A stretch of DNA of 64,000 bases, from assembly GCA_016932715.1 (NCBI GenBank), contig JAFGCG010000001.1:1-64000 (forward strand). The letters are read 5' to 3'. This document shows, one piece after another, positions 23,151 to 58,935 of the stretch (positions are counted from its first letter, which is position 1; each line of letters begins with the position of its first letter). This DNA is from Anaerolineales bacterium. Lineage in GTDB: Bacteria > Chloroflexota > Anaerolineae > Anaerolineales > Villigracilaceae. Both the position numbers and the translations under genes were made by a program. The notes under the pieces are model-generated. The model had not been told where the DNA came from, did no database searches, and saw only the letters and a list, made by a program, of their open reading frames with translations.

Positions 23151-25133
23151 CTAATCCTCCAAAATGACTGTGCCCATTACGGACACGTCATATCCTATTC
23201 GTTGAGATACAGCCTCTCGAAAACGGCGATCAGCCAAAAGCCCGAAGAGTGGCGCAAGCAGGTCGCTTTCCGCAAATTCCTTCGGGGCAACCAGATCATA
23301 TCGTTCCTGATAGAGTGGAATAAAATCCAGATCCAGTGCCTGCGCGGCGGCGGCGATTCCCAGCCCGCAATCCGCCCGACCAGAGGCTACAGCGGCTGCA
23401 ACTCCGAGATGAGTATACTCTTCTTGAGAATAGCCGACAATGCGTTCCGGCGGGATTGTCATCAAATTCAAATGATAATCGAGCAAAACACGCGTGCCCG
23501 CGCCCCGCTGCCGGTTCACAAACTGGACCTGGGGCCTGGCGAGGTCTTCCAGGCTTTTCACGCCTTTCGGGTTTCCGCGCCTGACGATGAGCCCCTGTTC
23601 CCGCCCCACGAGCGCCACCACCCTGACGGGGATACCCGGCATGTACTGGCGAATATACGAAATGTTATATTCACCCGTTGCAGTGTCAAGAAGATGGGAC
23701 CCGGCTACATGCGCCTCGCCGCGGCGCAGGGCGATCAAGCCGCCCTGTGAGCCCACGTTCGCGGAGGCGAGCCGGCGAGCGTGCTCGGCAAGAAACTGCG
23801 CCAGGAGGTCCAGCGTGAGGTCATGCGAGCCGATGCAAAAAATCGTCCGCTCGATTTCTGCCTTGCTGCGATACAAACGGACTTCGACCTGCGCGCCCGC
23901 CTCCAATCCCTGCACGCCGCGCGGGATGAGTGCCAGCCCATCCGCTTGCACGAGGGAGGTGATCACTCCGGCTCCCCGCGACAGCGGCGCGGCGAGGAGT
24001 TTCTCGCCCACTTTCCCGACCGCCACTCGCACGTAATCATCATCGCCTGGTGGAGAAACGATCTTGCGAGTCAATATCGCAGTTTCTGTTTGCATTTCGT
24101 TCCGCTTCCGCCCCAGCCACTTTGCGATCAACGGTTCGACGAAGATATCGACCGTCAACGCGGCAGAGACGGGGTAACCGGGAACGCCGACAATCGGGAC
24201 CACAGACGATGGACCATGGACCGCGGTCTGTGGTCGATGGTCTATCGTCCCCAAAATAACGGGATGACCCGGTCTCACAGCCACACCATGCACTAATAAC
24301 TGTCCTAGTTTCTCAACAACCTTCGCCGAGAAATCCTCCGCGCCGGCAGAGGAACCGGCATTCAACAAAACGAGATCATATTCACGCGCGGCTTCCTGAA
24401 CGCGCGCACAAATCAAAGCAAAGTCATCTTTTACGATCGGGTAGCGGGTCGGTTCGCCGCCCATGGATTTGATCTGCGCCGCGATGACCAGCGAGTTGTA
24501 TTCGAGAATATCGCCCGCCTTGAGGCTGCTCCCCAGCGGGACGAGTTCCGAACCCGTAGGCAGGATCGCCACTTTCGGTTTGCGGGCAACTTTAATATCC
24601 TGGTATCCCGCCGCGGCGACGGCGCCCAAATCGACGGGGCGCAAAACGTGACCCGCGGGCAAAACCAGTTGGGTTGCAACAATATCTTCCCCCAGCGGGC
24701 GGACGTGACTCCACGGGGCGACAGAGGCGCGGATGCGAATGGAAGCAGGTGAGCGAATCTCGTTCGTAATATTTCCGTCTTCATCCAGGGATTCGACATT
24801 CTCGATGGGGATGACCGCGTTCGTCCACTCAGGCAGGGGATCGCCCGTGTCCACGTACTCCGCCCCAGGTCCGATTCGAAGCGTGACGGGCTTGGATGGC
24901 AAAGCCTCATTCGTTCCAGCCGCCCGGACCGCGAATCCATCCATCGCAGAGGCGTGGTAGTGAGGCGAGGAAATCTTAGCCCAAACCGGCTCGGCGGTCA
25001 CGCGCCCCAGTGCATTTTCATCGAGAGGGATCGATTCCGTTCCAAGCACGCGCCACAAACCCACCTCTTGCAGAGCCTGCTGCAGGCGTCTTTGGGCTTC
25101 AGGGAGAGGGATATCGTGAAGATAGACCGACAT
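23151..25133 (-). CDS. MoeA-like molybdopterin molybdotransferase fused to a PBP-like domain
   Basis: Residues 1 to about 410 are MoeA, the step that inserts molybdate or tungstate into adenylated molybdopterin. Landmarks are SAMDGFAVRA, ILPTGSELV, NAGSSAGAEDF and GVPGYPVSA. Residues about 430-660 form a substrate-binding-like (type 2 PBP) domain with FCIGSHDLTLDLLAQFL, QFVNRQRGAGTRVLLDYHL and GRADCGLGIAAAA, similar to the molybdate- or pterin-sensing domains fused to MoeA in other bacteria. An extra loop at about residues 294-312 is encoded by a palindromic repeat. It is followed without a gap by a receiver gene. Confidence 0.88.
   Translation of the reverse strand: MSVYLHDIPLPEAQRRLQQALQEVGLWRVLGTESIPLDENALGRVTAEPVWAKISSPHYHASAMDGFAVRAAGTNEALPSKPVTLRIGPGAEYVDTGDPLPEWTNAVIPIENVESLDEDGNITNEIRSPASIRIRASVAPWSHVRPLGEDIVATQLVLPAGHVLRPVDLGAVAAAGYQDIKVARKPKVAILPTGSELVPLGSSLKAGDILEYNSLVIAAQIKSMGGEPTRYPIVKDDFALICARVQEAAREYDLVLLNAGSSAGAEDFSAKVVEKLGQLLVHGVAVRPGHPVILGTIDHRPQTAVHGPSSVVPIVGVPGYPVSAALTVDIFVEPLIAKWLGRKRNEMQTETAILTRKIVSPPGDDDYVRVAVGKVGEKLLAAPLSRGAGVITSLVQADGLALIPRGVQGLEAGAQVEVRLYRSKAEIERTIFCIGSHDLTLDLLAQFLAEHARRLASANVGSQGGLIALRRGEAHVAGSHLLDTATGEYNISYIRQYMPGIPVRVVALVGREQGLIVRRGNPKGVKSLEDLARPQVQFVNRQRGAGTRVLLDYHLNLMTIPPERIVGYSQEEYTHLGVAAAVASGRADCGLGIAAAAQALDLDFIPLYQERYDLVAPKEFAESDLLAPLFGLLADRRFREAVSQRIGYDVSVMGTVILED
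24198..24251. repeat. Family B palindrome inside the MoeA-PBP gene
   Basis: Perfect arms GACCACAGAC (24198-24207) and GTCTGTGGTC (24226-24235), followed by GATGGTCTATCGTC. Related GGACCGTGG/CCACGGTCC-like words occur at 44808-44834 and 45283-45315. Here it is read in frame as HRPQTAVHGPSS, an insertion not expected in MoeA. Confidence 0.7.
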
Positions 25134-25134
25134 A

Positions 25135-25176
25135 ACGATTTACGATTTGCGATTTACGATTTGCGATTGACGATTT
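25135..25176. repeat. Family A heptad array, six units
   Basis: Six tandem 7-base units of the form RCGATTK (ACGATTT, GCGATTT, GCGATTG) fill the gap upstream of the MoeA-PBP gene. A separate run of TTCATCC words follows near 25218-25240. Confidence 0.85.
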
Positions 25177-25238
25177 ATGCATCCAGCCATTTGTGCCGTG
25201 TGACTCATAACTCGGTTTTCATCCTTCATCCTTCATCC

Positions 25239-26678
25239 TTACGTTAACACTTCCACATCGTGCGGGCCCGACTCTTTCAGCCCCGCGCCGGTCATGCGCA
25301 CGAAGATCGCCTTCTGCTGGAAATCTTCGATCGAGTGTGCGCCGCTGTAACTCATCCCGGACTGTAATCCGCCGACCAGCTGGGTCAGCACTTCGCGCGC
25401 TTTGCCGCGATATGGGACCGCGGCTTCCACGCCTTCCGCGACGTAGTCTTCGATCTCTTCGTGGGTCAGGTCGTTGCCCTCGCGCTTGTTACGCTCGATG
25501 TTCGCTTCGAGCGATGCCATGCCGCGCGAGGCTTTGTAACGATGACCGCGCCGTGTCATGATCAGGCCCGGGCTTTCATCTGTTCCCGCGAGCAGACTCC
25601 CGATCATGGCAGTTTGTGCGCCGGCGGCGATCGCCTTCGCCAGGTCACCGGGCTGGCGAACGCCGCCATCCGCAATAATGGGAATCCTGTGTGCGCGTGC
25701 AGCTTCGGCGCATTCGATCACAGCCGTCAATTGCGGCACGCCGGAGCCAGCCACATTTCGGGTGATGCAAATCGAACCGGGTCCCACGCCGACCTTGACC
25801 GCGTCGACACCCGCCTCGATCAGACGTTTCGTACCGTCCGCGCTGGCAACGTTCCCGCCAATGATCTGCGCCTGAGAAAAATGTTTGCGAATACCCTTGA
25901 TCATTTCCACTTCGAGCTGCGAGTCGCCGTGCGCGATATCGACTACGATGCAATCGGCGCCCGCTTCGAGGACAGCTTCCACGCGGCGCATTTCCCTGTC
26001 GCGTACGCCGACGGCTGCGCCAACCGCCAGCCGTCCCTTTGCGTCTTTCGTCGCTTTGGGGAACTGTGTGATCTTCATAATATCCTTCAACGTCACCAGT
26101 CCTACCACGTTGCCCTTGTCATTGACCAGCGGAAGCTTCTCCACGCGGTACTCGTGCAAGAGTCGTTCGGCATCCTTCAATGACGTGTCTGGCGGTGCAG
26201 TGTGCACATTCCTCGACATGATGTCTGTCACGGGTTTATTCATGTCATTTTCGAATAACAAATCGCGCGTCGAAACGATGCCGATCAGCTTCTCATCCTC
26301 ATCCAGGATCAAAATTCCGCCCGTACCGGTTTCGTCGACAACGCGTTTCAGATCACCGACCGTATTCGTTTCCCGCATCATGATCGGTTTATCAACAATG
26401 AACGACTCAGCCTTCTTCACGCGCCCGATCTGACGCGCCTGCTCCGCGATCGTCATAAAGCGGTGGATGATCCCGATCCCGCCTTCGCGCGCCATGGTGA
26501 TCGCCATCTCGCTTTCCGTGACCACGTCCATGTTTGCGGAAACGATCGGCACCTGCAAAGCGATGTTCCTGGTCAGCCAGCTTCTTGTCGAAAGGGAGCG
26601 GCGCGATTCCACAGCGGAATATTGGGGTACGAGCAAAACATCATCGTACGTTAAAGCTGTTTCGGGCAAAATCTTCAT
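25239..26678 (-). CDS. guaB: IMP dehydrogenase
   Basis: A 479-residue enzyme that converts IMP to XMP with NAD, the committing step of GMP synthesis. The catalytic loop is GPGSICITRNVAGSG, with the active-site cysteine, and IADGGVRQPGDLAKAI, EGVEAAVPYRG and the C-terminal YSGAHSIEDF follow. Two CBS domains are inserted at about residues 95-205. The ATG has GAGGAG upstream. It is divergent from purB, so both AMP and GMP branches of purine synthesis (guaB, purB, purA) are clustered here. Confidence 0.96.
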   Translation of the reverse strand: MKILPETALTYDDVLLVPQYSAVESRRSLSTRSWLTRNIALQVPIVSANMDVVTESEMAITMAREGGIGIIHRFMTIAEQARQIGRVKKAESFIVDKPIMMRETNTVGDLKRVVDETGTGGILILDEDEKLIGIVSTRDLLFENDMNKPVTDIMSRNVHTAPPDTSLKDAERLLHEYRVEKLPLVNDKGNVVGLVTLKDIMKITQFPKATKDAKGRLAVGAAVGVRDREMRRVEAVLEAGADCIVVDIAHGDSQLEVEMIKGIRKHFSQAQIIGGNVASADGTKRLIEAGVDAVKVGVGPGSICITRNVAGSGVPQLTAVIECAEAARAHRIPIIADGGVRQPGDLAKAIAAGAQTAMIGSLLAGTDESPGLIMTRRGHRYKASRGMASLEANIERNKREGNDLTHEEIEDYVAEGVEAAVPYRGKAREVLTQLVGGLQSGMSYSGAHSIEDFQQKAIFVRMTGAGLKESGPHDVEVLT

Positions 26679-26715: not shown

Positions 26716-26723
26716 GCGTGACT

Positions 26724-29385
<2,662 letters not shown>

Positions 29386-29387: not shown

Positions 29388-29412
29388 AAGTGAAAAGTGA
29401 GAAGTGAAAAGT
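29388..29412. repeat. Family L words (GAAGTGAAAAGT)
   Basis: Two copies of GAAGTGAAAAGT flank a GA dinucleotide right after the purA stop. The same words on the opposite strand occur at 57590-57622 at the end of the M24 peptidase gene. Confidence 0.5.
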
Positions 29413-30998: not shown

Positions 30999-32354
30999 CT
31001 ATAGCAAATAGACTTCCACCATTTCGCCTGCCGACAACCCGGTCGCATCGGGATGAATGCGCAGAAGTCCATCGGCGGAAGCGAGGGTAAAGATCAAGTT
31101 ACTCTTGCCGAAGATAGGCTCAGCATCATAATTAGCGATTAGCGATTGGCGATTAGCGGTTAGCGGTTGGCGATCAGCGGTTAGCGGTTGGCGATCAGCG
31201 ATTGGCAACTGGCGATTGGCGATGAGCTTTACGGGCCACCAGTCTTCGCGGCCGGCTTGCGATGGCAGATTCACAGTAAGCCGTGCCAGGACGGTTGCTC
31301 TCGGCCTGGGCAGCGCGCCGAGTAATTTCTCGAGCACCGGTACGACAAACAAATATCCATTTACCAGCGCGCTGACAGGGTTGCCAGGCAGCCCGATAAC
31401 AGCCTTTCCGTCGCAGACGCCTAAAATCGTGGGCTTGCCGGGGCGCGTGTTGATGCCATGGACCAGCACACCCGGCGTGCCCAGGGAGCGAATGACCTCC
31501 GCGGTCATATCGCGCGTCGAGGCGGATGAACCGGCTGTGATGATGACCACGTCACACTCCAATAACGCTTTGGCAGCCGCATCTTTGAGCGCCTCGAACT
31601 CATCAGAGATGATGCCATAGCGCGTGGCTGTCCCACCTGACTTTTCCACCAAAGCACTCAGCGTATAGGAATTGACGTCGCGCACCTGGCCCGGTCGCGG
31701 GGACTGGGAAGGGTCAACAACTTCATCCCCTGTCGAGATCAGCCCGACTCGGACTTTTCTCACCACGTTGGCTTTCGTGACTCCCAGCGCCATGAGCCCC
31801 CCGATCTCCGCGGGACGCATCCGACTCCCCTTCGGCTGGATCAATTGTCCCTGCGCCACATCCTCCCCGACGCGGATCACGTTCTCGCCCTCCGCGATCG
31901 CGCGGAAGATTTCGATTTCGTTTGTCGGGGCTGGGCTTGCCCCTGCCCCCAGGCGACCGTGAAAGTCGCCCCTACGGATTATTTGTGTATATTCCAACAT
32001 CACCACCGCATCAGCACCTCTGGGTAACATCCCGCCGGTGTGGATCGACGCGCATTGTCCCGCCTCAACTTCGAATGCGGGCGCAGCCCCCATTGGAACT
32101 TCACCAATGAGGTTGAGGTAGGCTGGCAGCGAATCGCTGGCCCCATGCGTATCCCCGGCGCGGACCGCGTACCCGTCCACGGTGGAACGCTCAAAATCCG
32201 GCAAGGGATGTGACGCGCGGAGGTCTGCCGCGAGGACGCGGCCTAAGGCTGAGGGAACGTCGATTAATTCGGAATCAGTGATCGGCGGCGAAAGATATGA
32301 GAAGAGCAGCGCGCGGGCGTCATCAGGAGGCAGAAGCGTCAAAAACTCGGGCAT
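30999..32354 (-). CDS. moeA: Molybdopterin molybdenumtransferase MoeA
   Basis: A 451-residue enzyme that ligates molybdate or tungstate to molybdopterin. It has FERSTVDGYAVRAGD, GAVKL-type core strands, ISTGDEVVDP, TAGSSASTRDMT and GLPGNPVSALVNGY. Two inserted stretches are encoded by repeats: residues about 125-144 (GAGASPAPTNEIE) by a double hairpin, and residues about 378-408 by thirteen 7-base units giving a 7-residue period (LPIADRQ, PLTADRQ, PLTANRQ). It is the second MoeA in the window. An AOR gene downstream in the window is a plausible client. It converges with the dehydratase gene, with only 7 bases between. Confidence 0.93.
   Translation of the reverse strand: MPEFLTLLPPDDARALLFSYLSPPITDSELIDVPSALGRVLAADLRASHPLPDFERSTVDGYAVRAGDTHGASDSLPAYLNLIGEVPMGAAPAFEVEAGQCASIHTGGMLPRGADAVVMLEYTQIIRRGDFHGRLGAGASPAPTNEIEIFRAIAEGENVIRVGEDVAQGQLIQPKGSRMRPAEIGGLMALGVTKANVVRKVRVGLISTGDEVVDPSQSPRPGQVRDVNSYTLSALVEKSGGTATRYGIISDEFEALKDAAAKALLECDVVIITAGSSASTRDMTAEVIRSLGTPGVLVHGINTRPGKPTILGVCDGKAVIGLPGNPVSALVNGYLFVVPVLEKLLGALPRPRATVLARLTVNLPSQAGREDWWPVKLIANRQLPIADRQPLTADRQPLTANRQSLIANYDAEPIFGKSNLIFTLASADGLLRIHPDATGLSAGEMVEVYLL
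31132..31222. repeat. Family A heptad array inside moeA, thirteen units
   Basis: Thirteen exact 7-base steps of the form TTRGCGR (TTAGCGA, TTGGCGA, TTAGCGG, TCAGCGG) lie within the coding sequence. Because three heptads equal seven codons, the peptide repeats every seven residues. Confidence 0.92.
31924..31980. repeat. Family I double-hairpin repeat inside moeA
   Basis: GGGGCTGGGCTTGCCCC and GGCGACCGTGAAAGTCGCC are two adjacent hairpins read in frame within moeA. The element ends CCCCTACGGATT. Confidence 0.65.
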
Positions 32355-32358: not shown

Positions 32359-33231
32359 CTAGTGAAGCCAGAAAAAACTCACGCTCAAAAAGTAAGCGGT
32401 CAGCCCGAACACTGTCAGAGCGGTCACGGTTAGGAGTCTCCAATTGGTTGGCGCACCCAGGGCAATGTTACGAAGCTGGTAAATTTGAAACAGGGCAAAG
32501 GGCAGTGTCAAAAAGGCAGGCAGAACAAGGGAAAGCCTGAGACCAAAGACTGGCGCCGCCAAAAAGAAAAGATAGGCAAGCAGGATGAAAAGATGATGCA
32601 GAGGCACAACCCGCTCCCAGCCAAGCCCCGTCAGGAAGGTACTGCGACTGTATTTCGTGTCCGAAGCAAAGGCGGGGAAATCCATGACGATGAAGTAGGC
32701 AAAAGCCAGGAACGTCAGGGGAATGGTAATCAGCAGGAAGCGATGCGTTTCACCCGATTGAAGGATGTATCCAATCGAAGGAACGACATATGCCAGTTGT
32801 GCCGCCAGGATGAATTCACCAAACCCGCGATTGATAAAGCGGAGAGGAGGAATGGAATAGGCGAGGACAAGCAGGAGAGAGAGCAAAAGAAAGGTAAAAG
32901 CAGGAACGGGCAGGTGGTCGTTGTTGTAGAGGAGAAATGCAATGACCGCATTTGCGGTGAGTGCTGCGATGGAAACGTACAACGCGTTGTTACGAAGCGC
33001 CAGGCGGTCTTTGAGAGTCTCGCCTTCGACGATGGGTTCGTTGATAGGTCGAAAGACCTCTGCCAGCAAATTCATGCTCGCCTGCGCGAGCAGGACCGCA
33101 GCAAGCCCAAGCCAGAAGGAGTCGCTGCGGAACTGTTTGCCGAGGTAATTGGCAATGCTCGTGCCGAGAAAATAGGTCAGCGCGGCGAGCAGCAGGTGAA
33201 GCGGGCGGGAGAGACGGAGGAGGTTTTTCAA
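32359..33231 (-). CDS. UbiA-family prenyltransferase-like protein with altered Asp motif
   Basis: A 290-residue protein with about eight helices in the UbiA pattern. The second motif region (VMDFPAFASDTKYSRST) keeps two aspartates. The first motif, normally NDxxDxxxD, reads NLLAEVFRPINE, so two magnesium-binding aspartates are replaced by glutamate or arginine. It may have a changed activity or accept a different donor, for example a menaquinone-like or lipid substrate. It begins 5 bases from the moeA start side and probably shares a transcript with moeA. Confidence 0.75.
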   Translation of the reverse strand: MKNLLRLSRPLHLLLAALTYFLGTSIANYLGKQFRSDSFWLGLAAVLLAQASMNLLAEVFRPINEPIVEGETLKDRLALRNNALYVSIAALTANAVIAFLLYNNDHLPVPAFTFLLLSLLLVLAYSIPPLRFINRGFGEFILAAQLAYVVPSIGYILQSGETHRFLLITIPLTFLAFAYFIVMDFPAFASDTKYSRSTFLTGLGWERVVPLHHLFILLAYLFFLAAPVFGLRLSLVLPAFLTLPFALFQIYQLRNIALGAPTNWRLLTVTALTVFGLTAYFLSVSFFWLH

Positions 33232-33240
33232 TTTGGGATT

Positions 33241-33263
33241 TCCGATTTACGATTGACGATTTG
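33241..33263. repeat. Family A heptads, three units
   Basis: CCGATTT, ACGATTG and ACGATTT lie just upstream of the UbiA-like gene, in the gap after the aminotransferase. Confidence 0.6.
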
Positions 33264-35733: not shown

Positions 35734-35739
35734 ATTGTA
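35734..35739 (-). promoter_or_regulatory. -10 element next to SDR start (possible leaderless mRNA)
   Basis: TACAAT on the minus strand is exactly six bases from the ATG at 35727. No ribosome site lies between and no clear -35 is seen. Confidence 0.4.
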
Positions 35740-35754
35740 ATGGGTAAATTGGGA

Positions 35755-35850
35755 AAAAGGTAGACAGGTATACAAGTAGACACATAAACAGGTCAGCGGC
35801 CCGTCTACGTGTCTACTTGAATACTTGCTTACTTGTGTACTTATCTACTT
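35755..35850. repeat. Family E words (GTAGACA/TGTCTAC)
   Basis: GTATACAAGTAGACAC and GTGTCTACTTGAATAC form near-palindromic arms, with more CTTACTTGTGTACTT words beyond. The same words recur at 56510-56560. Confidence 0.6.
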
Positions 35851-36988: not shown

Positions 36989-38491
36989 GTGAGGAACCGC
37001 AGTTCCGTCCCCATCTTACGCGGGATATCCATCGCAATCTTATCCATCGCAGTCGTGCTGACCGTCATCGCACTGATCGGCTACAGCCGCCAGCGCAACA
37101 ACTATCCACGCGGCATGACCATCGCAGGCGTCCCCGTCGGCGGGGTTGACCCGCAGGTCGCCTCCGAGCGCGTGCTGCAAGTGTATTCGTCACCCATCGA
37201 AGTGCAGTATGGCGAAGCGATCATCCATGTTGACCCTTCGGTGGTCGGCTTTGAGCTGGATATGGACAGCATGATCGCCGCCGCAGACCTTGAACGCACC
37301 GGTGGTTCCTTCTGGGGTGGATTTTGGAACTATTTGTGGAACCGCGACCCCGCGCCGGTCGAGATCCCGTTAAGCGCGACGATCAGCGAAGAACGTTTAC
37401 GGGCTTACTTGCAGAATGAAATCTCCGCACGTTACGATGAACCTCCCACGCCGGCTCAGCCTGTCCCGGGCAGCACAACGTTCACAGCCGGCACACCCGG
37501 AATTATCCTCGATATTGACCGGGCAGTGCGTTTGATCGAAGACACACTCCGCTCGCCCAACAATCGGACCGTGGTGCTTTCCTTTCGGCAGAGCGCGGCC
37601 GCCCGGCCGACCATGCAAAACCTGGAAATATTGCTCCAGCAAAATATCACGGTGGCTGACTTCGACGGGGTCATCGGGGTTTACCTGCAGGATCTGCAGA
37701 ATGGGCAGGAGATCCACTTTGCCATGGATCAGGGTGAATTGATCTCGGTGAATCCGGATATTGCCTTCACCGCCTCCAGCACCGTAAAGATCCCGATCAT
37801 GGTTTCCTACTTCATCAAATACGGCAGCGATGCCTTGAGCGAACAGTCGACGGCTTTGCTCATGGACATGATCCGCAGATCCGAGAATCCGCCCGCGGAT
37901 CGTCTGATGGAAAGCCTGGATGCGCTGAGAGGTCCGCTGGTTGTGACGGAAGATATGCGCAAGATCGGGCTGGAAAATACCTTCCTGGCTGGTTTCTTTT
38001 GCAGTGCAGAGTTCCCCTGCCCGCTTTTGCAGCGGTTCGAGACCCCCGCGAACAAACGCACCGACGTCGAGACCGATCCCGACTCCTTCAACCAGACCAC
38101 CCCATCCGATATTGGCATGCTGCTGGCTGATATCTACCAATGCGCAGAAGGCGGCGGCGGCGCATTGATCGCCGCCTTCCCCGATAAGATCAGTAGTGAA
38201 CTCTGCAAGCAAATGATCACCCTGCTAGCCTCCGACAAGATCGGGGTTTTGATCGAGGCAGGCGTTCCGGAGGGGACGCAGGTCGCCCATAAACATGGCT
38301 GGATCAGCGATCCGTCCTCGCTTGTCATCAAAAACATCAGCGATGCCGGGATTGTCTATACGCCCGGCGGCAATTATGTCCTGGTGATCTATGCTTATCA
38401 CCCGGTGCAAACGGTCTGGGAGCCGGTCTCCGGACTCTTCGCACAGATGTCACAGGCAGTTTACAATTACTATAACATCCCGACTCAATAA
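36989..38491 (+). CDS. Membrane-anchored serine hydrolase (class A beta-lactamase-like) with N-terminal PG-binding-like region
   Basis: A 500-residue protein with one N-terminal anchor (ISIAILSIAVVLTVIALIGY), then a region resembling the YoaR/VanW-type putative peptidoglycan-binding domain (GMTIAGVPVGGVDPQVA). The C-terminal domain from about residue 210 is of the beta-lactamase/transpeptidase fold with the SxxK motif in TASSTVKIPIMVS and KHGWISDPS in place of the KTG motif. It probably acts on cell-wall peptides or is an inactive relative rather than a resistance enzyme. The start is a GTG with GGAGG upstream. Confidence 0.75.
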   Translation: MRNRSSVPILRGISIAILSIAVVLTVIALIGYSRQRNNYPRGMTIAGVPVGGVDPQVASERVLQVYSSPIEVQYGEAIIHVDPSVVGFELDMDSMIAAADLERTGGSFWGGFWNYLWNRDPAPVEIPLSATISEERLRAYLQNEISARYDEPPTPAQPVPGSTTFTAGTPGIILDIDRAVRLIEDTLRSPNNRTVVLSFRQSAAARPTMQNLEILLQQNITVADFDGVIGVYLQDLQNGQEIHFAMDQGELISVNPDIAFTASSTVKIPIMVSYFIKYGSDALSEQSTALLMDMIRRSENPPADRLMESLDALRGPLVVTEDMRKIGLENTFLAGFFCSAEFPCPLLQRFETPANKRTDVETDPDSFNQTTPSDIGMLLADIYQCAEGGGGALIAAFPDKISSELCKQMITLLASDKIGVLIEAGVPEGTQVAHKHGWISDPSSLVIKNISDAGIVYTPGGNYVLVIYAYHPVQTVWEPVSGLFAQMSQAVYNYYNIPTQ

Positions 38492-41955: not shown

Positions 41956-42633
41956 ATGGTGGATGAATCGTTATTGCTGGCGATCGCTATCCTGGGCGGG
42001 ACAGGCAAAGAGGGAAAAGGTCTCGCGTACCGCTGGGCAAAGGCAGGTTATCGCGTTTTGATCGGTTCACGCTCTTCGGAAAAGGCTGTGAAGGCTGCCT
42101 CCGAAATTATGCAGCTATTGGAAGGTTCCTCTTCCGTGGTCGGCGCCACCAACCTGGAAGCAGCAGAACAGGCGGAGATCGTTGTCATTACCGTGCCCTA
42201 CTCGGCACACCGTGAGACACTGGAAAATGTGAAAGATGCCCTCAAAGGCAAGCTGCTGATCGATGTCACCGTCCCGCTTATCCCGCCAAAGGTAAGCAAG
42301 GTGCAAATGCCCGCCGCGGGATCTGCCACCCAGGAGGCAAAAGAGATCCTTGGCGAGGAGACAGAAGTCGCGGCTGCGTTCCAAAACGTTTCTCATGAAC
42401 TTTTGCTGGGCGAGGAAGAGATCGAATGTGATGTGCTCGTGACGGGTACAAGCAAAAAAGCGCGCGCGGAGGCATTGACGCTTGTCGCCGCCGCCGGGTT
42501 GACAGGCTGGGATGCCGGCACGATCGAGAACTCTGTCGTTGTCGAAGGACTCACCAGCCTGCTCATCAATATCAATAAGCAATACGGCTCCACCCATGCG
42601 GGAATCAAGATCACAGGCGTGCAAAATCAGTAG
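41956..42633 (+). CDS. npdG: NADPH:F420 oxidoreductase
   Basis: A 225-residue Rossmann enzyme that exchanges hydride between NADPH and coenzyme F420. The N-terminal site is AILGGTGKEGKGLAYRW with an NADP-type GSRSSEKA just after, and VITVPYSAHRETL, VTVPLIPPKV and AAFQNVSHELL follow as in NpdG/Fno. GGAGGAGG lies five bases before the ATG. It is the first gene of the F420 island and would connect the F420 pool to NADPH. Confidence 0.9.
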   Translation: MVDESLLLAIAILGGTGKEGKGLAYRWAKAGYRVLIGSRSSEKAVKAASEIMQLLEGSSSVVGATNLEAAEQAEIVVITVPYSAHRETLENVKDALKGKLLIDVTVPLIPPKVSKVQMPAAGSATQEAKEILGEETEVAAAFQNVSHELLLGEEEIECDVLVTGTSKKARAEALTLVAAAGLTGWDAGTIENSVVVEGLTSLLININKQYGSTHAGIKITGVQNQ

Positions 42634-42637
42634 GCAG

Positions 42638-42713
42638 TATTCAGTCGCCGGTAAATTGTTATGTATGCTGTTCGCTGAACACTAACGACTGAACACTGAT
42701 TACTGAGCACTAA
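42638..42713. repeat. Family F words (CTGAACACTRA)
   Basis: CTGAACACTAA, CTGAACACTGA and CTGAGCACTAA are spaced closely, with the reverse AGTATTCAGT on the left. It fills the gap between npdG and cofE and touches the cofE start. Confidence 0.55.
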
Positions 42714-44807: not shown

Positions 44808-44834
44808 TGGTGGACCGTGGACAGTAGACCGTGT
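44808..44834. repeat. Family B words after the nitroreductase
   Basis: GGTGGACCGTGG and ACAGTAGACCGTG form two related words, matching those at 45283-45315 on the opposite strand and at 24198-24251. Confidence 0.5.
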
Positions 44835-45275: not shown

Positions 45276-46224
45276 AAGTACTGTCCTTCGTCCATCGTCT
45301 ACCGTCCACCGTCGTATCGTTGCTCTCGCGGGCGGCGTCGGTGGCGCGAAGTTTGCCCACGGGCTCGCTCAGATTCTCCCGCCTGAAGACCTGACGGTCA
45401 TTGTCAATACCGGCGATGACTTCGAGCATTACGGTTTGTACATCTGTCCTGACCTGGATACGGTCTGCTATACACTGGCAGGATTAGCCAACCCCGAAAC
45501 AGGCTGGGGGCGCGTGGACGAAACGTGGAATGTCATCGAGAACGCCTCGAAACTTGGCGGACCGGATTGGTTCCGTTTGGGCGACCGGGATCTGGGAACG
45601 CACCTCGAGCGGACGCGGCGCTTGAAAGAGGGGCAAACATTATCGCAAATTACAAAAGACTTTTGTAAAGCCTGGGGAGTTGAACAGACAATCCTGCCCA
45701 TGTCGGACCAGCCGGTGCGAACGATTGTCGAAACGGAGGCAGGCGATCTCGCGTTTCAGGAATATTTCGTACACCGTCGCTGTGAGCCGCGCGTGAAAGG
45801 CTTCCGATTCGAAGGGGTCGATTTGGCGGAACCCGCTCCGGGGGCGCGCGAAGCGCTCCAGGCCGCGGATGCAGTCATCCTTTGCCCGTCAAATCCCTGG
45901 GTGAGCATCGATCCAATCCTGCGAGTTATCAAAAAAGTAAAGAAGCCTGTCGTTGCAATCTCCCCCATCCTTGGCGGGCAAACAGTCAAGGGTCCGGCGG
46001 CGAAGATGTTCCGCGAGCTGGGCTTCAAGCCATCTGCGCTGGCTGTTGCAAATCATTATTGCGATCTGATAAGCGGGTTTGTGCTGGACAAGATTGATGA
46101 GCAATTGAAAGGAGATATAGGTATAAACATGAGTACAATGGTAACCAACACATTGATGAAGGATCTGAACGATAGAAGCCGACTGGCTCAGGATGTACTA
46201 CACTTCATCGAGGCTGAGCTATGA
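45256..46224 (+). CDS. cofD: 2-phospho-L-lactate transferase CofD
   Basis: A 322-residue enzyme that joins the activated lactyl-type donor to FO, giving F420-0 or dehydro-F420-0. It shows ALAGGVGGAKFAHGL, IVNTGDDFEHYGLYICPDLDTV, GWGRVDETW, LSQITKDFCKAWG and CPSNPWVSIDPIL. The first ~20 residues before RRIVALAGG (TVLRPSSTVH) are encoded by family B repeat words, so the native start may have been altered by the insertion. GTG at 45238 is an alternative. It overlaps cofC by the ATGA at 46221. Confidence 0.93.
   Translation: MAQINSESTVLRPSSTVHRRIVALAGGVGGAKFAHGLAQILPPEDLTVIVNTGDDFEHYGLYICPDLDTVCYTLAGLANPETGWGRVDETWNVIENASKLGGPDWFRLGDRDLGTHLERTRRLKEGQTLSQITKDFCKAWGVEQTILPMSDQPVRTIVETEAGDLAFQEYFVHRRCEPRVKGFRFEGVDLAEPAPGAREALQAADAVILCPSNPWVSIDPILRVIKKVKKPVVAISPILGGQTVKGPAAKMFRELGFKPSALAVANHYCDLISGFVLDKIDEQLKGDIGINMSTMVTNTLMKDLNDRSRLAQDVLHFIEAEL
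45283..45315. repeat. Family B words in the cofD N-terminus
   Basis: GTCCTTCGTCCATCGTC and TACCGTCCACCGTCG are coding here. They correspond to the reverse of words at 44808-44834, so the four-helix-bundle gene is flanked by inverted copies. Confidence 0.6.
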
Positions 46225-49523: not shown

Positions 49524-50009
49524 TTACAGCCTCTGCAAATAATCCAGCAGCAACTTCAACGCTGCCTCTGCCGCAGATAATTTATTTTCCTCCCGATTGC
49601 CCGAAAAACGAAAGACTTCTGCCCACTCTCCCTGGCCTGTCACGAATCCAATCCAGGTTGTACCGACCGGTTTCTCCGGGGTCCCGCCACCAGGACCCGC
49701 AATCCCGCTGACCGATATGGCGATATCCGACTTCAAAGCCTTATGGATGCCTCGCGCCATTTCAAGAACGATCTCACGGCTCACGGCGCCTTTTGTATTC
49801 AACGTATCCCAGGAAACATTCAACAAAGCGACTTTCGCTTCATAGGCATATGCCACGACGCCGCCAAGGAAATACTCCGACGAACCCGGCACATCGGTAA
49901 TACGGCTGCTGAGCAAGCCACCCGTACAAGACTCGGCCAGCGCCAGTGTCAACCCACGTTCCTGTAACAGGCGTCCTACCTGTATCTCCAGGGAATCGGT
50001 CACGTTCAC
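49524..50009 (-). CDS. pncC: CinA C-terminal domain protein (NMN amidohydrolase)
   Basis: A 161-residue protein consisting only of the CinA C-terminal domain, which deamidates nicotinamide mononucleotide in pyridine nucleotide salvage. It contains LAESCTGGLLSSRITDVPGSS, FLGGVVAYAYEAK and SVSGIAGPGGGTPEKPVGT. The start is a GTG with GAGG upstream, and the minus strand has TATAAT at 50036-50031. A stem AAAGCGCTGC/GCAGTGCTTT overlaps its stop on the boundary with the convergent LLM gene. Confidence 0.9.
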   Translation of the reverse strand: MNVTDSLEIQVGRLLQERGLTLALAESCTGGLLSSRITDVPGSSEYFLGGVVAYAYEAKVALLNVSWDTLNTKGAVSREIVLEMARGIHKALKSDIAISVSGIAGPGGGTPEKPVGTTWIGFVTGQGEWAEVFRFSGNREENKLSAAEAALKLLLDYLQRL

Positions 50010-51008: not shown

Positions 51009-52889
51009 ATGGAAATTTCAGAGAAGATTCAAGGCATCCTTGCCACCCTGCCTGCAAAGCCGGGCTGCTACCTGATGAAAAATGCCGAGGGGAAGATTAT
51101 CTATGTTGGCAAAGCGATCAGCCTGAAGAACCGCGTCCGGTCGTATTTCCACGCGGATGCCGGTTACGACGCGAAGACGCGGCGGCTGGTGCGTGAGATC
51201 GCCGATATCGAGTGGATCCTCGTCGGGTCGGAGCTGGAGGCGCTCATCCTGGAGATGAACCTCATCAAAAAGCACCGGCCCAAGTACAACGTCCGCCTGA
51301 AGGACGACAAGCGCTATCCATATATCAAAATCCATTGGGCTGACCCTTTCCCCAAAGTAACGGTGACGCGCCAAATGGTCGATGATGGCTCGCGGTATTT
51401 CGGTCCGTACACCTCCGCCTGGGCCGTCTATCAAACCCTGGATGTGCTCCGCCGCATCTTCCCCTATCTGACCTGCGACCGTGAGATCACCGGGATGGAC
51501 AAGCGCGCCTGTCTTTATTACGACATCAAGCTGTGCATCGCTCCCTGTATTGGCGCGGCATCCCAGGCGCAGTACCGCCAGATGATCTCCGACCTGATGG
51601 ACTTCCTCGGCGGGCACAGCGAGGGCATCGTGGCACGCATCCAAAGCGAGATGGAAAAAGCTTCCGAGGAAATGCGCTTCGAGAAGGCTGCCGCCCTGCG
51701 CGACCAGCTCAAAGCCATTCAAGCGATTATCGAGCGGCAGAAGATCGTCTTCGCGACGGACTACCTGGACTCGGACGTGCTGGCGATGGCGCGCAGCGAC
51801 GGGGAAGCCTGCGTGCAGATCTTCTTTATCCGCGGCGGGAAGCTGATCGGACGCGAATACTTTATCCTGGAAGGCACGGAAGATGAAGCGGATACCGAGG
51901 TGATGGAGCAGTTCATTACACAGTTCTATACCGAAGCCGCGACGATCCCACAGCAGGTGATGCTGCCGCAGGAAATCGAAGAGGCGCGCATCATCAGCCA
52001 GTGGCTGCGATCCAGACGCGGCGGCGAGAAGGTCGAGTTCTTCGTCCCGAAAGAGGGCCAGCCGCGCGAACTGGTGCAGATGGCAGCCGAAAACGCAACC
52101 GAGACCCTGCAAGCCCTGCGCGCCCAGTGGCAGGCGGATACGCACAAACAGGAACAGGCTCTCGCCGAACTGCAGCAGGCGCTGAACCTGCCGGAGCCGC
52201 CGAACCGGATCGAATGCTACGATATTTCGAACACACAGGGCACCGCGATTGTCGGGGCAATGGTGGTCTTCACGCAGGGCGTGCCTGACAAAAAGTTGTA
52301 CCGCAAATTCAACATCGAGAGCGTGGTCGGCGCGCCGGACGATTTCGCCTCGATGGAGGAGATGTTAACGCGCCGGTTCCGCAGGTGGCGCGGCGGACAG
52401 GACGCTTCGACTTCGCTCAGCGGGAATCCGCCCCCTGGGTTCAAGCGGGATGAATCGTTCTCCTTCCTGCCCGACCTCGTGATCATCGACGGCGGCAAGG
52501 GTCAGTTGGGACGCGCCGTCAGCGTCCTCGAGAAGTTCGAACTGCAGGACAAAGTCCCAGTGGTGGGACTCGCAAAGCAGCGCGAGGAAATCTTCTTCCC
52601 ACACAAGCCGGAAGCGCTGATGCTGCCGCGCCATTCCCAGGCGCTCTACCTTGTACAGCGCATCCGGGATGAGGCGCACCGCTATGGGATCACGGCACAT
52701 CGGAAGAAACGCCAAAAAATCGGCATGGCTTCTCAGCTGGACTCCATCCCGGGAATCGGTCCCACGCGTCGAAAAGCCCTCTTGAAACATTTCGGTTCTG
52801 TGGATAAGATTAGGGAAGCTTCGATTGAAGAATTAAGGGTTGTTGTGCCGGAAGACGTGGCAAACTCCATCAAGGCGCACCTCGAATGA
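51009..52889 (+). CDS. uvrC: UvrABC excinuclease subunit C
   Basis: A 626-residue nuclease that makes both incisions in nucleotide excision repair. The GIY-YIG domain has PGCYLMKNAEGKIIYVGKA, the UvrB-binding UVR motif is near residue 215 (MEKASEEMRFEKAAALRDQL), the RNase H-like domain has IECYDISNTQGT and LVIIDGGKGQLGRAV, and a tandem helix-hairpin-helix ends the protein (DSIPGIGPTRRKALLKHFGS). Residues about 461-483 (QDASTSLSGNPPPGF) form an extra loop encoded by a repeat. The ATG at 51009 has no ribosome site but TAAAAT is at 50995-51000. The receiver gene overlaps its stop. Confidence 0.96.
   Translation: MEISEKIQGILATLPAKPGCYLMKNAEGKIIYVGKAISLKNRVRSYFHADAGYDAKTRRLVREIADIEWILVGSELEALILEMNLIKKHRPKYNVRLKDDKRYPYIKIHWADPFPKVTVTRQMVDDGSRYFGPYTSAWAVYQTLDVLRRIFPYLTCDREITGMDKRACLYYDIKLCIAPCIGAASQAQYRQMISDLMDFLGGHSEGIVARIQSEMEKASEEMRFEKAAALRDQLKAIQAIIERQKIVFATDYLDSDVLAMARSDGEACVQIFFIRGGKLIGREYFILEGTEDEADTEVMEQFITQFYTEAATIPQQVMLPQEIEEARIISQWLRSRRGGEKVEFFVPKEGQPRELVQMAAENATETLQALRAQWQADTHKQEQALAELQQALNLPEPPNRIECYDISNTQGTAIVGAMVVFTQGVPDKKLYRKFNIESVVGAPDDFASMEEMLTRRFRRWRGGQDASTSLSGNPPPGFKRDESFSFLPDLVIIDGGKGQLGRAVSVLEKFELQDKVPVVGLAKQREEIFFPHKPEALMLPRHSQALYLVQRIRDEAHRYGITAHRKKRQKIGMASQLDSIPGIGPTRRKALLKHFGSVDKIREASIEELRVVVPEDVANSIKAHLE
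52390..52452. repeat. Family K repeat-like insertion inside uvrC
   Basis: The stretch containing GACGCTTCGACTTCGCTCAG is read in frame as a Ser/Gly/Pro-rich loop between the conserved TRRF and LPDLVIIDGG segments. Only one clear copy is in the window, so repeat status is tentative. Confidence 0.4.
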
Positions 52890-53293: not shown

Positions 53294-53374
53294 TTTACCA
53301 CGGAGAACACGGAGTCCACAGAGATTTTTAAGGGGTTTTCTCCGTGTTCTCAGTGCGCTCCGCGGTGAAACTGC
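53294..53374. repeat. Family D palindrome (ACACGGAG words)
   Basis: GAGAACACGGAG (53303-53314) and CTCCGTGTTCTC (53340-53351) are perfect 12-base arms, extended by CCACGGAG and CTCCGCGG on the outside. It lies between the receiver gene and the small membrane protein. Confidence 0.8.
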
Positions 53375-55729: not shown

Positions 55730-55734
55730 TGACA

Positions 55735-56360
55735 TGCAGACGGAAATTCTTCCGGCTTCTTCGCCCGATGCAGTCACGTACGCTTGTGAAGTTTTGCAGC
55801 GAGGCGGATTGGTCGCCTTTCCCACCGACACAGTCTATGGCGTTGGCGCGCCGGCATTCAACGGGAAAGCCGTCGAGTCGGTGTATCGTGCAAAGGATCG
55901 ACCCGTTGAAAAGGCAATCCCCATTTTGATCGGTGATCCAAATGATTTGGAAAAAGTTGGGATGAATATTCCTGAGGTCGCGCGTCAGCTGGCCTCTCGT
56001 TTCTGGCCCGGACCTCTCACGCTGCTTGTCCCGAAGCGCCTCGACCTCCCCGAGGCGGTTTCTGCCACTTCCACCGTCGGCGTGCGCGTGCCTGACCACG
56101 AGGTTGCGCGGGCGCTCCTGCGCCGCGCGGGACCACTGGCAGTCACCTCCGCAAATATTTCCGGAGCACAGAGTCCGGTCACTGCGCAGGAAGTTTACAG
56201 GCAACTGGGCGGAAGAATCCCATTGATCCTTGATGGAGGCAAAACGCCGGGAGGAGTCCCGTCCACGCTTGTCGATTGCACAACATCTGAATTGAAAATT
56301 TTGCGGGAGGGTCCTGTTTCGCCGGAAGAGTTACGTTCCGCGCTAAATAATTTGGAGTGA
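55735..56360 (+). CDS. tsaC: Threonylcarbamoyl-AMP synthase
   Basis: A 208-residue Sua5/YciO/TsaC protein that makes threonylcarbamoyl-AMP for the t6A37 modification of ANN-reading tRNAs. It has GGLVAFPTDTVYGVGAPAF, YRAKDRPVEKAIPILI, FWPGPLTLLVPK, TVGVRVPDH and VTSANISGAQSPV. It lacks the extra Sua5 C-terminal domain. It begins 5 bases after prmC and converges on tsaD, which performs the following transfer step. Confidence 0.94.
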
Positions 56361-56440
56361 AAAACTCTTAGTCTGCTTTCAGGTTTGGTTCAGGTTCCCT
56401 TAAAGTCCCTGGCTATAATGAAAGCTGCATTCTCCTTTAC

Positions 56441-56486
56441 AAACCGCCCACGGCTCGGGCAAGCCAAGGGCGGTTTGGGTTTTTTG
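56441..56486 (+). terminator. Terminator after tsaC
   Basis: AAACCGCCC (56441-56449) pairs with GGGCGGTTT (56468-56476), with an inner GGCT/AGCC, and is followed by GGGTTTTTT. A TATAAT at 56414-56419 lies only about 22 bases before it. Confidence 0.85.
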
Positions 56487-56509
56487 TGGACAGTACACGG
56501 GTAAAAAGC

Positions 56510-56560
56510 AAACAGGTATACAGGTCAAAAAGCTTGTATACCTGTTTACTTGTCTACCTT
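56510..56560. repeat. Family E palindrome beside tsaD
   Basis: AAACAGGTATACA (56510-56522) and TGTATACCTGTTT (56535-56547) are perfect 13-base arms with a 12-base spacer; ACTTGTCTACC follows. The same words occur at 35755-35850. Confidence 0.85.
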
Positions 56561-57587
56561 ACGACAGCGGCCAGGTCGGCTCGACATCGATATCCAGTTC
56601 AGAGACATGCCCCAGGGCGTACCGGTAATACCCGGCTGCGGCGATCATCGCGGCGTTGTCAGTGCATAGCGAAAACGCTGGGATATGGACCTTGAATTCA
56701 TCCTGCAATTGAAACGCCTGACGAAGCGCGTGGTTGGCAGAAACGCCGCCCGCGACGAGAATCTCTTTTGCCTGATGGTCGCGCGCAGCCTGCATGGTCT
56801 TCTTGAACAGCACCTCCACCACCGCAGCCTGGAACGAGGCCGCCAGGTCTTCCACAGGCAGCGTTTTCCCTTTTTTCTTCAAATCAGCGACTTCATACAG
56901 GACCGCCGTTTTGAGTCCGCTGAACGAAAAGTCGTATTGCCCCTCGAGCCTGGCGCGCGGGAATTTGAAACGCGTTGGGTCTCCGCTTTCGGCTGCGCGC
57001 TGAACGGACGGTCCGCCGGGGTATGGGAGCTCGAGCAGCCGCGCGACCTTGTCGAAGGCCTCACCCGCCGCGTCATCCAGGGTGGCGCCGAGACGCCGGT
57101 ACGTCAGATGATCGGTCATGAGATTCAGTTCTGTGTGCCCGCCGGAGACAAGCAAAGCCATCAACGGAAATTGAGGTTCCGGCGGCATCGTCTCGCCAGC
57201 GTTGTACACCCACGATGAATAAATATGCCCCTCGAGGTGATTCACGCCGATCAGCGGCAAGCCCATCCCGAGGGCGATTCCCTTTGCCATATTCATGCCA
57301 ACGACCAGCGACCCCGCCAGTCCAGGACCGCGTGTGACGGCAACCGCGTCGATATCCTGCAATGTCAGATTGGACTGCACAAGCGTCTGCTCCACGACGG
57401 GAATAATGCTCAACACGTGCTGGCGCGAGGCGACCTCAGGGAACACGCCGCCATAACGTGCGTGGATGTCCATCTGCGAGGCGACCGTGGAGGACAAAAG
57501 CACGCGCCCGTTTTCGAGGATCGCGCAGGCGGTCTCATCGCAGGAGGTTTCGATGGCAAGGATCCGGGCGGATTTCAATTCACTCAT
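56559..57587 (-). CDS. tsaD: tRNA threonylcarbamoyladenosine transferase subunit TsaD
   Basis: A 342-residue ASKHA-fold protein that transfers the threonylcarbamoyl group to A37 of tRNA, in complex with TsaB and TsaE. The metal-binding histidines are in GVNHLEGHIYSS, with IETSCDETACAIL, GGVFPEVASRQH, PLMALLVSGGHTEL and LVAGGVSANHALR. The family E palindrome lies immediately after its stop. It is convergent with tsaC. Confidence 0.96.
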   Translation of the reverse strand: MSELKSARILAIETSCDETACAILENGRVLLSSTVASQMDIHARYGGVFPEVASRQHVLSIIPVVEQTLVQSNLTLQDIDAVAVTRGPGLAGSLVVGMNMAKGIALGMGLPLIGVNHLEGHIYSSWVYNAGETMPPEPQFPLMALLVSGGHTELNLMTDHLTYRRLGATLDDAAGEAFDKVARLLELPYPGGPSVQRAAESGDPTRFKFPRARLEGQYDFSFSGLKTAVLYEVADLKKKGKTLPVEDLAASFQAAVVEVLFKKTMQAARDHQAKEILVAGGVSANHALRQAFQLQDEFKVHIPAFSLCTDNAAMIAAAGYYRYALGHVSELDIDVEPTWPLS

Positions 57588-57589
57588 CG

Positions 57590-57622
57590 TACTTTTGACT
57601 TCTCACTTTTTACTTCCGACTT
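57590..57622. repeat. Family L words at the M24 peptidase end
   Basis: ACTTTTGACTTCTCACTTTTT and ACTTCCGACTTC match the reverse of the words at 29388-29412. They span the 3' end of the peptidase gene and supply its last residues (VGSKK). Confidence 0.5.
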
Positions 57623-58871
57623 CTTTCTTCCACTTCTTCATCGGCAAAACAAAATCATAGGGATAGTCAGCCAGCAGTTCCGCTTTGCCATCGGGTCGTA
57701 CCCAATAGGTGTCTTCGATTCGCACGCCCATGCCTTTGTCGGGATAATACAAACCGGGCTCGATGCTGATGACTACGCCGGGCTTGAGAAGATTATCCCC
57801 GGCTGCAGTGAGAGCAGACCACGGACGTTCATGGATATTCAAGCCAACCCCGTGTCCCAGGGAATGGACATACCCCTCCAGCGGCGCCTTCGTGTTGAGT
57901 TGGGATTTGTGCCCCTTAGACTCAAAATACTCGCATGTCATACGCTGGTAGTCAATAAAGGATGCATTCAGGTCGAGGTTCTCAATGACCTTGTCATAGA
58001 CTTCACGGACCTGATCATAGAGGGACTGCGCTTCAGGAGCCGCGTATCCCAGACTCCAGGTGCGTGTGAAATCAAAGAAATACCCCCCGCCCTTTTCGGC
58101 CGGGAAGATATCAAAGACGATCGTCTTGCCCAATGTCATCAAATCTTCAGGAGCGCCGACGGAATGCGGTACGCCCGCGTCGCGCCCGATCGCGAAGATC
58201 ACACCTTCCACATCCACCGCGCCGCGTTCCGCCAGCCAAAGAGCGATCTTGGATTTCACGTCTCCCACGGTAAGCGGGCTGCCATCTTCCTTCAATAGCA
58301 CTTCGTCCTCACGCACGTCACAGGCAGTCAGGTAATCCTGGACCATCTGCACAACGGTTGTCGTCACTGCACCTATTTGGCGGATGCGGGCGATTTCCAG
58401 GTCATCTTTGGTTTCCATCGCACGCAACAGGGTCGAATCCATGCCAGATTCGCCGACAAGTTCCAATTCGGGCATGACGCTCGCCAGCTTCATCAGGACG
58501 CCAAACAAGTGAGAGAGTTCCATCCTCCCATACACTGCGGCCCGCCCTCCGGAAAGTCCAAACTCCGAAAAGATCCTTCGGAAATTCAGCGCGACCGCCA
58601 GCTGCATATCCCCATTCGCCTGTTCCATGAAATCTGTCATGGGGAATTCACTGAACGAGACCGTCTTCAAGCCACTCCTGGCGGCTTCATCGCGCTCCAT
58701 ATCATTGTAGAACAACACCGGTTCTTTTCCGACTTTCTTGATCAGCAGCGCGCTGCTGACATGCCCGCCTCCCACGAAATAGTACATGGGCGGGTTATAT
58801 TCTGCATCACCAAAAACGAGGATGGCATCCAGCCTGCGATCCTGCATCAGGGCATCGAGATCAGATTTCAT
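57603..58871 (-). CDS. M24 family metallopeptidase (Xaa-Pro peptidase-like)
   Basis: A 422-residue pita-bread-fold peptidase. It has an N-terminal creatinase-like domain and a C-terminal catalytic domain with GKTIVFDIFPAEKGGGYFFD, SLGHGVGLNIHERPW, SIEPGLYYP and GVRIEDTYWV. Two acidic ligands occur as DIFPAEKGGGYFFD rather than the usual DxGxxxxGYxxD, so the first metal-ligand motif is slightly divergent. It probably removes N-terminal residues before proline or acts as a related hydrolase. GGAG precedes the ATG at 58871. Confidence 0.85.
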   Translation of the reverse strand: MKSDLDALMQDRRLDAILVFGDAEYNPPMYYFVGGGHVSSALLIKKVGKEPVLFYNDMERDEAARSGLKTVSFSEFPMTDFMEQANGDMQLAVALNFRRIFSEFGLSGGRAAVYGRMELSHLFGVLMKLASVMPELELVGESGMDSTLLRAMETKDDLEIARIRQIGAVTTTVVQMVQDYLTACDVREDEVLLKEDGSPLTVGDVKSKIALWLAERGAVDVEGVIFAIGRDAGVPHSVGAPEDLMTLGKTIVFDIFPAEKGGGYFFDFTRTWSLGYAAPEAQSLYDQVREVYDKVIENLDLNASFIDYQRMTCEYFESKGHKSQLNTKAPLEGYVHSLGHGVGLNIHERPWSALTAAGDNLLKPGVVISIEPGLYYPDKGMGVRIEDTYWVRPDGKAELLADYPYDFVLPMKKWKKEVGSKK

Positions 58872-58892
58872 AAATTCTCCTGGAAAGATTCT

Positions 58893-58935
58893 AACGCGAA
58901 TCGCACGAATCGCTGCCTGTAGCAGCATTCGCGTT
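58893..58935. repeat. Family C palindrome at the selA stop
   Basis: AACGCGAAT (58893-58901) and ATTCGCGTT (58927-58935) enclose an inner GCTGC/GCAGC stem. It overlaps the selA stop and precedes the M24 peptidase gene, so it could act as a transcription boundary. Confidence 0.75.

Follow-up and report, generated by a model that had tools for sequence, protein, structure and literature searches.

We examined the short repeats in a 64,000-nucleotide (nt) stretch of DNA from an Anaerolineales bacterium of the Villigracilaceae (assembly GCA_016932715.1, contig JAFGCG010000001.1, positions 1 to 64,000), which we call the window. The repeats are dispersed arrays of short degenerate words that recur every 7 or 8 nt, and they lie both between and within genes. 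Pfam neighbors in the window include MoeA-PBP, IMP dehydrogenase, PurB, PurA, a second MoeA, F420 genes, UvrC, and a release factor, among others. (Genes were called with a simple script based on open reading frames, or ORFs, so gene ends are uncertain.) The best match of the window's PurA, at 84% identity, is among Anaerolineae/Anaerolineales records, which head the list of its matches. The assembly (genome G000 in our set) has 4.94 Mb in 195 contigs and is 94.67% complete. An earlier reading of the sequence, the original prediction, had described palindromic families here, and the following are confirmed: RCGATTK, GTAGACA, GAAGTGA, CTGAACA, GGGAATC, GGACCAT/GACGATG, and a hairpin of the ACACGGAG type. 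The observation is largely real, but most families consist of units repeated in tandem every 7 or 8 nt, and many lack palindromic symmetry. The arrays and hairpins are:

24196..24251, no strand assigned: GACSATG heptads forming a palindrome, in frame in MoeA-PBP, in the loop between GHPVILG and GVPGYP; the 28-nt arms are 79% complementary and the loop varies among 28 sequences.
25135..25177, plus strand: single CGATTKR heptad array, immediately upstream of where the MoeA-PBP ORF starts and before IMP dehydrogenase.
25218..25240, plus strand: TTCATCC heptad array of 3.3 perfect units; relatives have the same word.
28043..28101, no strand assigned: GGGAATC heptad hairpin; its left arm codes the PurB C-terminal tail, and the GGAGG of the likely purA start (ATG 28120) follows closely after the hairpin.
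29388..29412, plus strand: AAGTGAA (GAAGTGA) heptad array just after purA.
31131..31227, plus strand: ATTAGCG heptad array of 13.9 units, in frame in MoeA (30999-32354, minus strand), coding RQPLTAN-type 7-residue repeats.
33231..33262, plus strand: CGATTKR heptad array at the start of the unassigned ORF 32359-33231 (minus strand).
35739..35850, no strand assigned: convergent pair (hairpin) of GTANACAV octads between minus-strand SDR and proline dehydrogenase genes.
42627..42713, no strand assigned: convergent pair of TCAGTNN heptads (the same as CTGAACA) between F420-oxidoreductase and F420-ligase ORFs.
44810..44833, plus strand: GTGGACC heptads of the GACSATG family.
45283..45313, plus strand: GTCCATC heptads, the GACSATG family in reverse orientation, just upstream of a CofD domain.
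53297..53368, no strand assigned: ACACGGAG-type hairpin between ORFs; its word is not enriched genome-wide.
56499..56560, no strand assigned: convergent pair (hairpin) of GTANACAV octads.
57591..57637, minus strand: AAGTGAA-type heptads (reverse complement of GAAGTGA) at the end of an M24 peptidase gene.
63705..63732, plus strand: CGATTKR heptad array.

Long perfect hairpins are in excess in this region. Between 24198 and 58935, there are 9 with arms of at least 10 nt (0.8 expected from 20 Markov-3 controls) and 3 with arms of at least 12 nt (0.1 expected). The original prediction gave perfect arms of 8 to 14 nt for most families; the lower end of this range does not stand out, as hairpins with 8-nt arms are little enriched (19 versus 12.5 expected).

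The arrays are abundant well beyond the window. By autocorrelation, 464 kb of the same genome contains 34 period-7 arrays (score of at least 13) and 11 period-8 arrays, versus 0 of either in an order-5 Markov control. Periods 14 (22 arrays, 0 in the control) and 16 (6 arrays, 1 in the control) were also found, and the other periods from 5 to 13 gave at most 6 arrays each. At 73 loci from relatives (1.11 Mb) there were 94 period-7 arrays versus 2 in the control, and six outgroup loci (106 kb) had 2. The unit is 7 nt in most arrays; GTANACAV and GTTWGAAR are octads. Three words were counted across the genome with the reversed pattern as the control (overlapping registers are included, so an array can give several matches): three consecutive CGATTTR units had 103 matches versus 6, the octad had 175 versus 0, and GACSATG had 92 versus 2. 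So, for these words, the original prediction survives the first outcome that it named as counting against it, few genome-wide copies per family. Other words were counted in 831 kb of this genome against the reversed word. GAAGCAATC, which we take to be part of the IARS...EIASG-type elements described below, was enriched (33 versus 1) and CATTGCGAG gave 11 versus 6; there was no excess of CCCTCTCCC (20 versus 20) or of the ACACGGAG word (19 versus 26).

Words are shared among arrays at different sites. Among 80 heptad arrays from our samples of this genome, 374 of 3160 pairs (11.8%) match within one mismatch, versus 3.0% in a reversed-unit control, although part of this sharing is low complexity (e.g., CTTTCCT). 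Among 27 octad arrays, 71 of 351 pairs (20%) match, versus 0 in the control. The octad word is also shared with an array-rich relative (G015, 98% complete), with 173 of 675 pairs matching versus 1 in the control; the excess for heptads is smaller (152 versus 80 of 2960). With up to three mismatches allowed, the octad occurs in 29 of 37 genomes of the family and in 6 of the 24 from elsewhere in the order, where just two have it in numbers (113 in G054 and 49 in G041). Within the genus the count ranges from 0 to 410. With up to two mismatches, it was found in 12 of 301 genomes sampled across the phylum, and 11 of these 12 are from the family. The octad is thus centered on the Villigracilaceae.

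The arrays also have a fixed direction. Searches with nine words over 2.7 Mb found 188 arrays and 3 reversed-unit control arrays (one of the nine words, ACGAGWA, gave no arrays). Where arrays of the same word lie within 100 bp of each other, 29 pairs are convergent (21 of them octad pairs), 3 are in the same direction, and none are divergent; this genome, G015, and G019 together account for 19 of the 21 octad pairs. A word-free pairwise comparison of 111 hairpins gave 407 matches in the same direction versus 7 in the opposite one, but the hairpins include orthologous sites among relatives, so these counts are not independent. We also considered whether G content itself is polarized. The left arm was G-rich in 58 of a first set of 65 hairpins and C-rich in 4; in the wider set of 111, the left arm was G-richer and the right arm C-richer in 89, with 16 reversed and 6 equal. 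As the polarity is weaker in the wider set, we set it aside and base our argument on word direction. Facing pairs of one fixed direction suggest a directional spreading process.

The two arms of a pair share the word only and are not copies of each other. Across 71 hairpins, complementarity between arms is 0.789 when they are aligned in the chosen register, and the best of the registers that are offset by whole units still gives 0.773. Facing units of 29 octad hairpins have a summed agreement (maximum 2) of 0.848 at their spacer positions, compared to 0.834 when shuffled (P = 0.33). On these grounds we rejected fold-back copying between the arms; agreement in the foot register is likewise 0.591 versus 0.551 (P = 0.18). 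Within an arm, spacers agree best between units that are two apart (0.49), compared to 0.33 for adjacent units and 0.28 for units from other sites. Each arm seems to have grown independently, often by two units per step.

The best-sampled words consist of a fixed core and free spacer bases (GTA-N-ACA-V). In 50 octad arrays, identified through autocorrelation and then assigned by consensus, six positions are 81–91% constant, and positions 4 (C 34%, G 27%, T 21%, A 18%) and 8 (G 36%, C 31%, A 24%, T 9%) are nearly free. TCAGTNA (15 arrays) has a free position 6, like the octad spacers, and CGATTTA has freer positions 6 and 7, with a less sharp split. Also, octad arrays start and stop at fixed points of the unit. 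In 63 octad arms, there is a sharp stop before AR-GTA on the outside and after GT on the inside: A is at −2 in 75% and C at −3 in 24%, and beyond the inner end come G (79%), T (68%), and then A (33%). A sharp end after CAGT is seen in TCAGT arrays, and there is a tendency for CGATT arrays to stop after CGATT. This rule (same direction, arms that are not mutual copies, fixed ends, and a core with free spacers) recurs across several words, and therefore the origin of the arrays becomes a testable question about a strand-specific synthesis step.

As the original prediction stated, copies that lie in frame within genes code for extra protein segments. Arrays are in frame in MoeA-PBP (23151-25133) and in the second MoeA (30999-32354), and the C-terminal tail of PurB, as read by hand, is array-coded and in frame as well. 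For MoeA-PBP we compared 28 sequences (4 of 31 loci, with partial matches, were left out). At a first loop, some species have LSVIS-type segments coded by TCAGT and others have no extra residues. A second loop, between conserved flanks, has inserts of several kinds, among them GACSATG arrays, GAGTAAC heptads, and an IARS...EIASG element. On a quick tree that excludes the loop columns (its only support values are from the Shimodaira-Hasegawa-like approximate likelihood ratio test, SH-aLRT, and 11 of 25 inner branches are open), the insert label at the second loop needs 14 changes, versus a mean of 16.4 for shuffled labels (as low in 10 of 200 shuffles); labels were assigned by eye and several are debatable. 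The first loop needs 6 label changes. The GACSATG label needs three, explicable either as three gains or as a single gain with two losses. Well-supported sister species differ in their insert. Given the 14 changes on a tree of 28 sequences, turnover at this loop is quick. In the second MoeA (an alignment of 36 rows, in which this genome and five others are present twice), orthologs have CGATT heptads, other heptads, unrelated palindromes, or short tails at the site of the window's 14-unit array. So, in these two genes, some relatives lack the coding copies, and the other outcome named against the original prediction (conservation at the same sites in all relatives) was not seen. Its view of an active or recent spreading process is supported by the recurrence of words at many unrelated sites and by the 14 label changes at the MoeA-PBP loop, with differences between sister species. 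The repeated changes in the MoeA loops also illustrate a route from short DNA words to new protein segments in conserved enzymes.

A few further observations concern these genes. The coding element of the IARS...EIASG...RND type is in frame at the second MoeA-PBP loop at five loci (L083, L045, L104, L064, and L108). The second MoeA loop at six loci (L134, L066, L135, L142, L158, and L161) has C-rich/G-rich palindromes with the C-rich arm on the left, several of the CCCCTCTCC...GGAGAGGGG type. By hand reading, the PurB frame (26718-28120 region) crosses the left arm of the GGGAATC hairpin and stops inside it. The longest purA ORF starts inside the same hairpin, but the likely start is 28120 because GGAGGCAGC-ATG lies there.

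The part of this pattern that needs a mechanism is the fixed direction together with arms that were not copied from each other. The explanation that we favor, tentatively, is directional extension of 3′ ends followed by slippage. An array would be seeded when a strand-specific template directs the extension of a DNA 3′ end by copies of a word that the genome already uses, and it would then enlarge through slippage, often in two-unit steps. If both 3′ ends at a gap or break were extended before closure, the result would be a convergent pair whose arms share the word and not the unit order. Arrays in promoters would be purged, and arrays in operon gaps or loose protein loops would stay until replaced. 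(We infer the 3′-end route, the template, and the purging.) A more specific proposal is that a directional, telomere-like activity with no recognized reverse transcriptase adds genome-specific 7- or 8-nt words to 3′ ends in whole units and that facing pairs are the scars of joined extended ends; this we consider unlikely.

Several observations weigh against 3′-end extension. A search for the RVT_1 reverse transcriptase (PF00078), as expected for telomerase-like repeat addition, gave no match in either this genome (94.67% complete) or G015 (98%), although both are array-rich and it is present in 33 of 61 genomes, and Ku was not found in any of the 37 family genomes. Thus, the usual RNA-templated polymerase and Ku end joining are not there, and we rejected them as the agent. 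(The number of reverse transcriptases is weakly correlated with the GACSATG count: rho = 0.36 across 61 genomes and 0.32, P = 0.053, within the family.) Most heptad arrays are unpaired (e.g., 30 of 32 CGATTKR arrays are single). The mean complementarity over all shifted registers in the 71 hairpins is lower, at 0.708, which leaves room for some mirror signal. A split into core and spacer is not clear in GGTAATT and GTTTGAAG arrays. Finally, the fixed direction could instead reflect a functional constraint or one paired ancestor per word.

There are two serious rivals. The convergent pairs could be selected RNA hairpins (or cruciform DNA) in operon gaps, acting for instance in mRNA processing or stability, if the transcript must show one arm first. 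We think this possible but somewhat doubtful. It fits the gene context of the arrays: of 182 arrays in samples from this genome, G015, and G019, 62 lie in ORFs, 24 lie at their ends, and 7, at the edges of contigs, were set aside; the other 89 are intergenic, with 76 between genes in the same direction, 5 between convergent genes, and 8 between divergent genes, versus about 61, 13, and 15 expected by hand arithmetic from gap bases. Also, 3 of 26 octad pairs, judged by eye, end 13–17 nt before an ATG. However, facing spacer bases are complementary no more than by chance, the majority of heptad arrays have no partner, 86 of the 182 arrays are at least half in ORFs, and an Rfam search of the window found no match. 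Another candidate, bidirectional Rho-type terminators with a C-rich 3′ arm and regular pyrimidine-C steps, would account for the polarity of 89 of the 111 hairpins. We rejected it as extremely unlikely: just 5 of the 89 intergenic arrays lie between convergent genes, and the sense strand in tandem gaps is C-rich in 43 arrays, G-rich in 29, and equal in 4. Ordinary local slippage, in which a chance pair of 7-mers expands as 7 nt suits DNA polymerase and the words are arbitrary, agrees with the growth by two units and with the dominance of period 7, as in many bacteria, where excerpted accounts ascribe it to polymerase slippage (PMC4679880, PMC4692102). As the sole cause it is disfavored by the word sharing, both among arrays and, for the octad and more weakly for heptads, with G015. 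It also leaves the core/spacer pattern and the fixed direction unexplained, and we regard it as very unlikely.

The other serious rival is that one palindromic ancestor per word was copied, for instance by a Y1 or REP-associated tyrosine transposase (RAYT), as for repetitive extragenic palindromes (REPs), bacterial interspersed mosaic elements (BIMEs), or miniature inverted-repeat transposable elements (MITEs), and that slippage later scrambled the arms. The original prediction had leaned this way; we find it rather doubtful. The convergent order is the HH dimer order of GTAG REPs, as excerpted from PMC3733652, and octads start with GTA at the foot. Y1-transposase genes are present in 57 of 61 genomes, including this one, and their number correlates with that of octads (rho = 0.49 across 61 genomes; 0.41, P = 0.012, within the family; uncorrected for kinship or multiple tests), although kinship or genome size could be the source. 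In contrast, near-identical full-length copies, as expected of MITEs, did not appear for the one octad hairpin compared: its 112 nt had a best long match in this genome of 75% identity over about 90 nt, with shorter stretches up to 96% over 26 nt. By eye, the loops differ among 26 octad hairpins, and no flanking 7-mer occurs in more than 6 of the 26 (counted without a control). There is no 20–40 bp palindrome with a conserved unpaired GTAG or CGTC; the fourth base of the octad is variable and not fixed as G, the arms are tandem arrays and not mirror copies, and many arrays are single. The check for a RAYT mobilizer that the original prediction proposed gave the modest correlation above but no enrichment of flanking repeats beside Y1 genes: array density was at background at the first 17 Y1 loci, and at 20 further loci it was 0.110 per kb within 1 kb versus 0.124 farther away (P = 1.0). 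TCAGT arrays lay within 1 kb of Y1 genes at 4 of the first 17 loci (L229, L233, L240, and L241), a post hoc observation by eye. The pattern did not recur at the 20 further loci, with 1 array close to a Y1 gene and 5 at a distance (P = 0.56), and we rejected a TCAGT-RAYT link.

Heptameric repeats in bacteria have been noted for decades. We place these elements with heptameric repeat arrays rather than with REPs or MITEs; as in short tandemly repeated repetitive (STRR)-like sequences, tandem 7-nt units are dispersed over many sites. In-frame insertion into protein genes, seen here in two genes by comparison to orthologs, is also a trait of Rickettsia palindromic elements, but sequence is not conserved along the element in the octad family. 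No title among the open-access literature matches listed concerns convergent heptad or octad pairs in Anaerolineales. The closest parallel is with the degenerate GGGAATC / GGGGA(T/C)T heptads of Xanthomonas and Nostoc (Rehm et al., 2015, PMC4692102; this and the following sources as excerpted). These are also dispersed, mostly in same-direction gaps and less in divergent gaps, and they form convergent pairs (70 and 75 GGGAATC site pairs in two xanthomonads). The GGGAATC word is itself present in the window, at 28043-28101. However, theirs is one G-rich word read as a quadruplex former, with 7–11% intragenic sites. Here, at least eight words have arrays, including octads without G runs, and far more of the arrays lie in ORFs; quadruplex-capable G runs are present in the GGGAATC hairpin and not in GTANACAV, TCAGTNA, or CGATTKR. 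The non-mirror arms, the fixed array ends, and the repeated in-frame change in core genes also differ from that account.

TCAGTNA is the reverse complement of the TAACTGA repeats of Beggiatoaceae, Cyanobacteria, and Bacteroidetes (MacGregor, 2015, PMC4679880), and it codes LSVISYQ-type peptides in the relatives' MoeA-PBP, a peptide also named in that paper. There, one word forms 169 direct-repeat sets and one indirect set, and translational regulation was proposed; here it is one among many words. Within the phylum, Chloroflexus aurantiacus has heptamer arrays, (GATAGRA)n satellites (PMC6749651), but these are of a single word, and the excerpt mentions neither pairs nor coding inserts. The GTAG- or CGTC-tagged REPs with RAYT (Di Nocera et al., 2013, PMC3733652) are likewise dispersed inverted pairs with tags outside (HH), some of them intragenic; they differ in being 20–40 bp stem-loops with a conserved unpaired tag, where our elements have tandem-array arms, a variable fourth base, and no RAYT link that we found. 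For the origin of heptameric repeats, the excerpted sources offer only hypotheses (PMC4692102, PMC4679880, PMC6749651).

Some features of the window fall outside this pattern. Lone copies of GGACCGTGG at 37566 and of GGGAATCG at 49991 and 52751, which the original prediction had listed, are single words in ORFs and likely due to chance, and its CGCGAATT cluster lies outside the interval that it gave (24198-58935). The cluster is an imperfect palindrome rich in CGCGAATT at 14190-14260, just upstream of the minus-strand ORF 12544-14148. ORF 36989-38491 has a Beta-lactamase2 domain (Pfam). UvrC contains a period-18 repeat at 52163-52206, which is a plain in-frame tandem repeat, and another period-18 repeat lies at 61777-61812.

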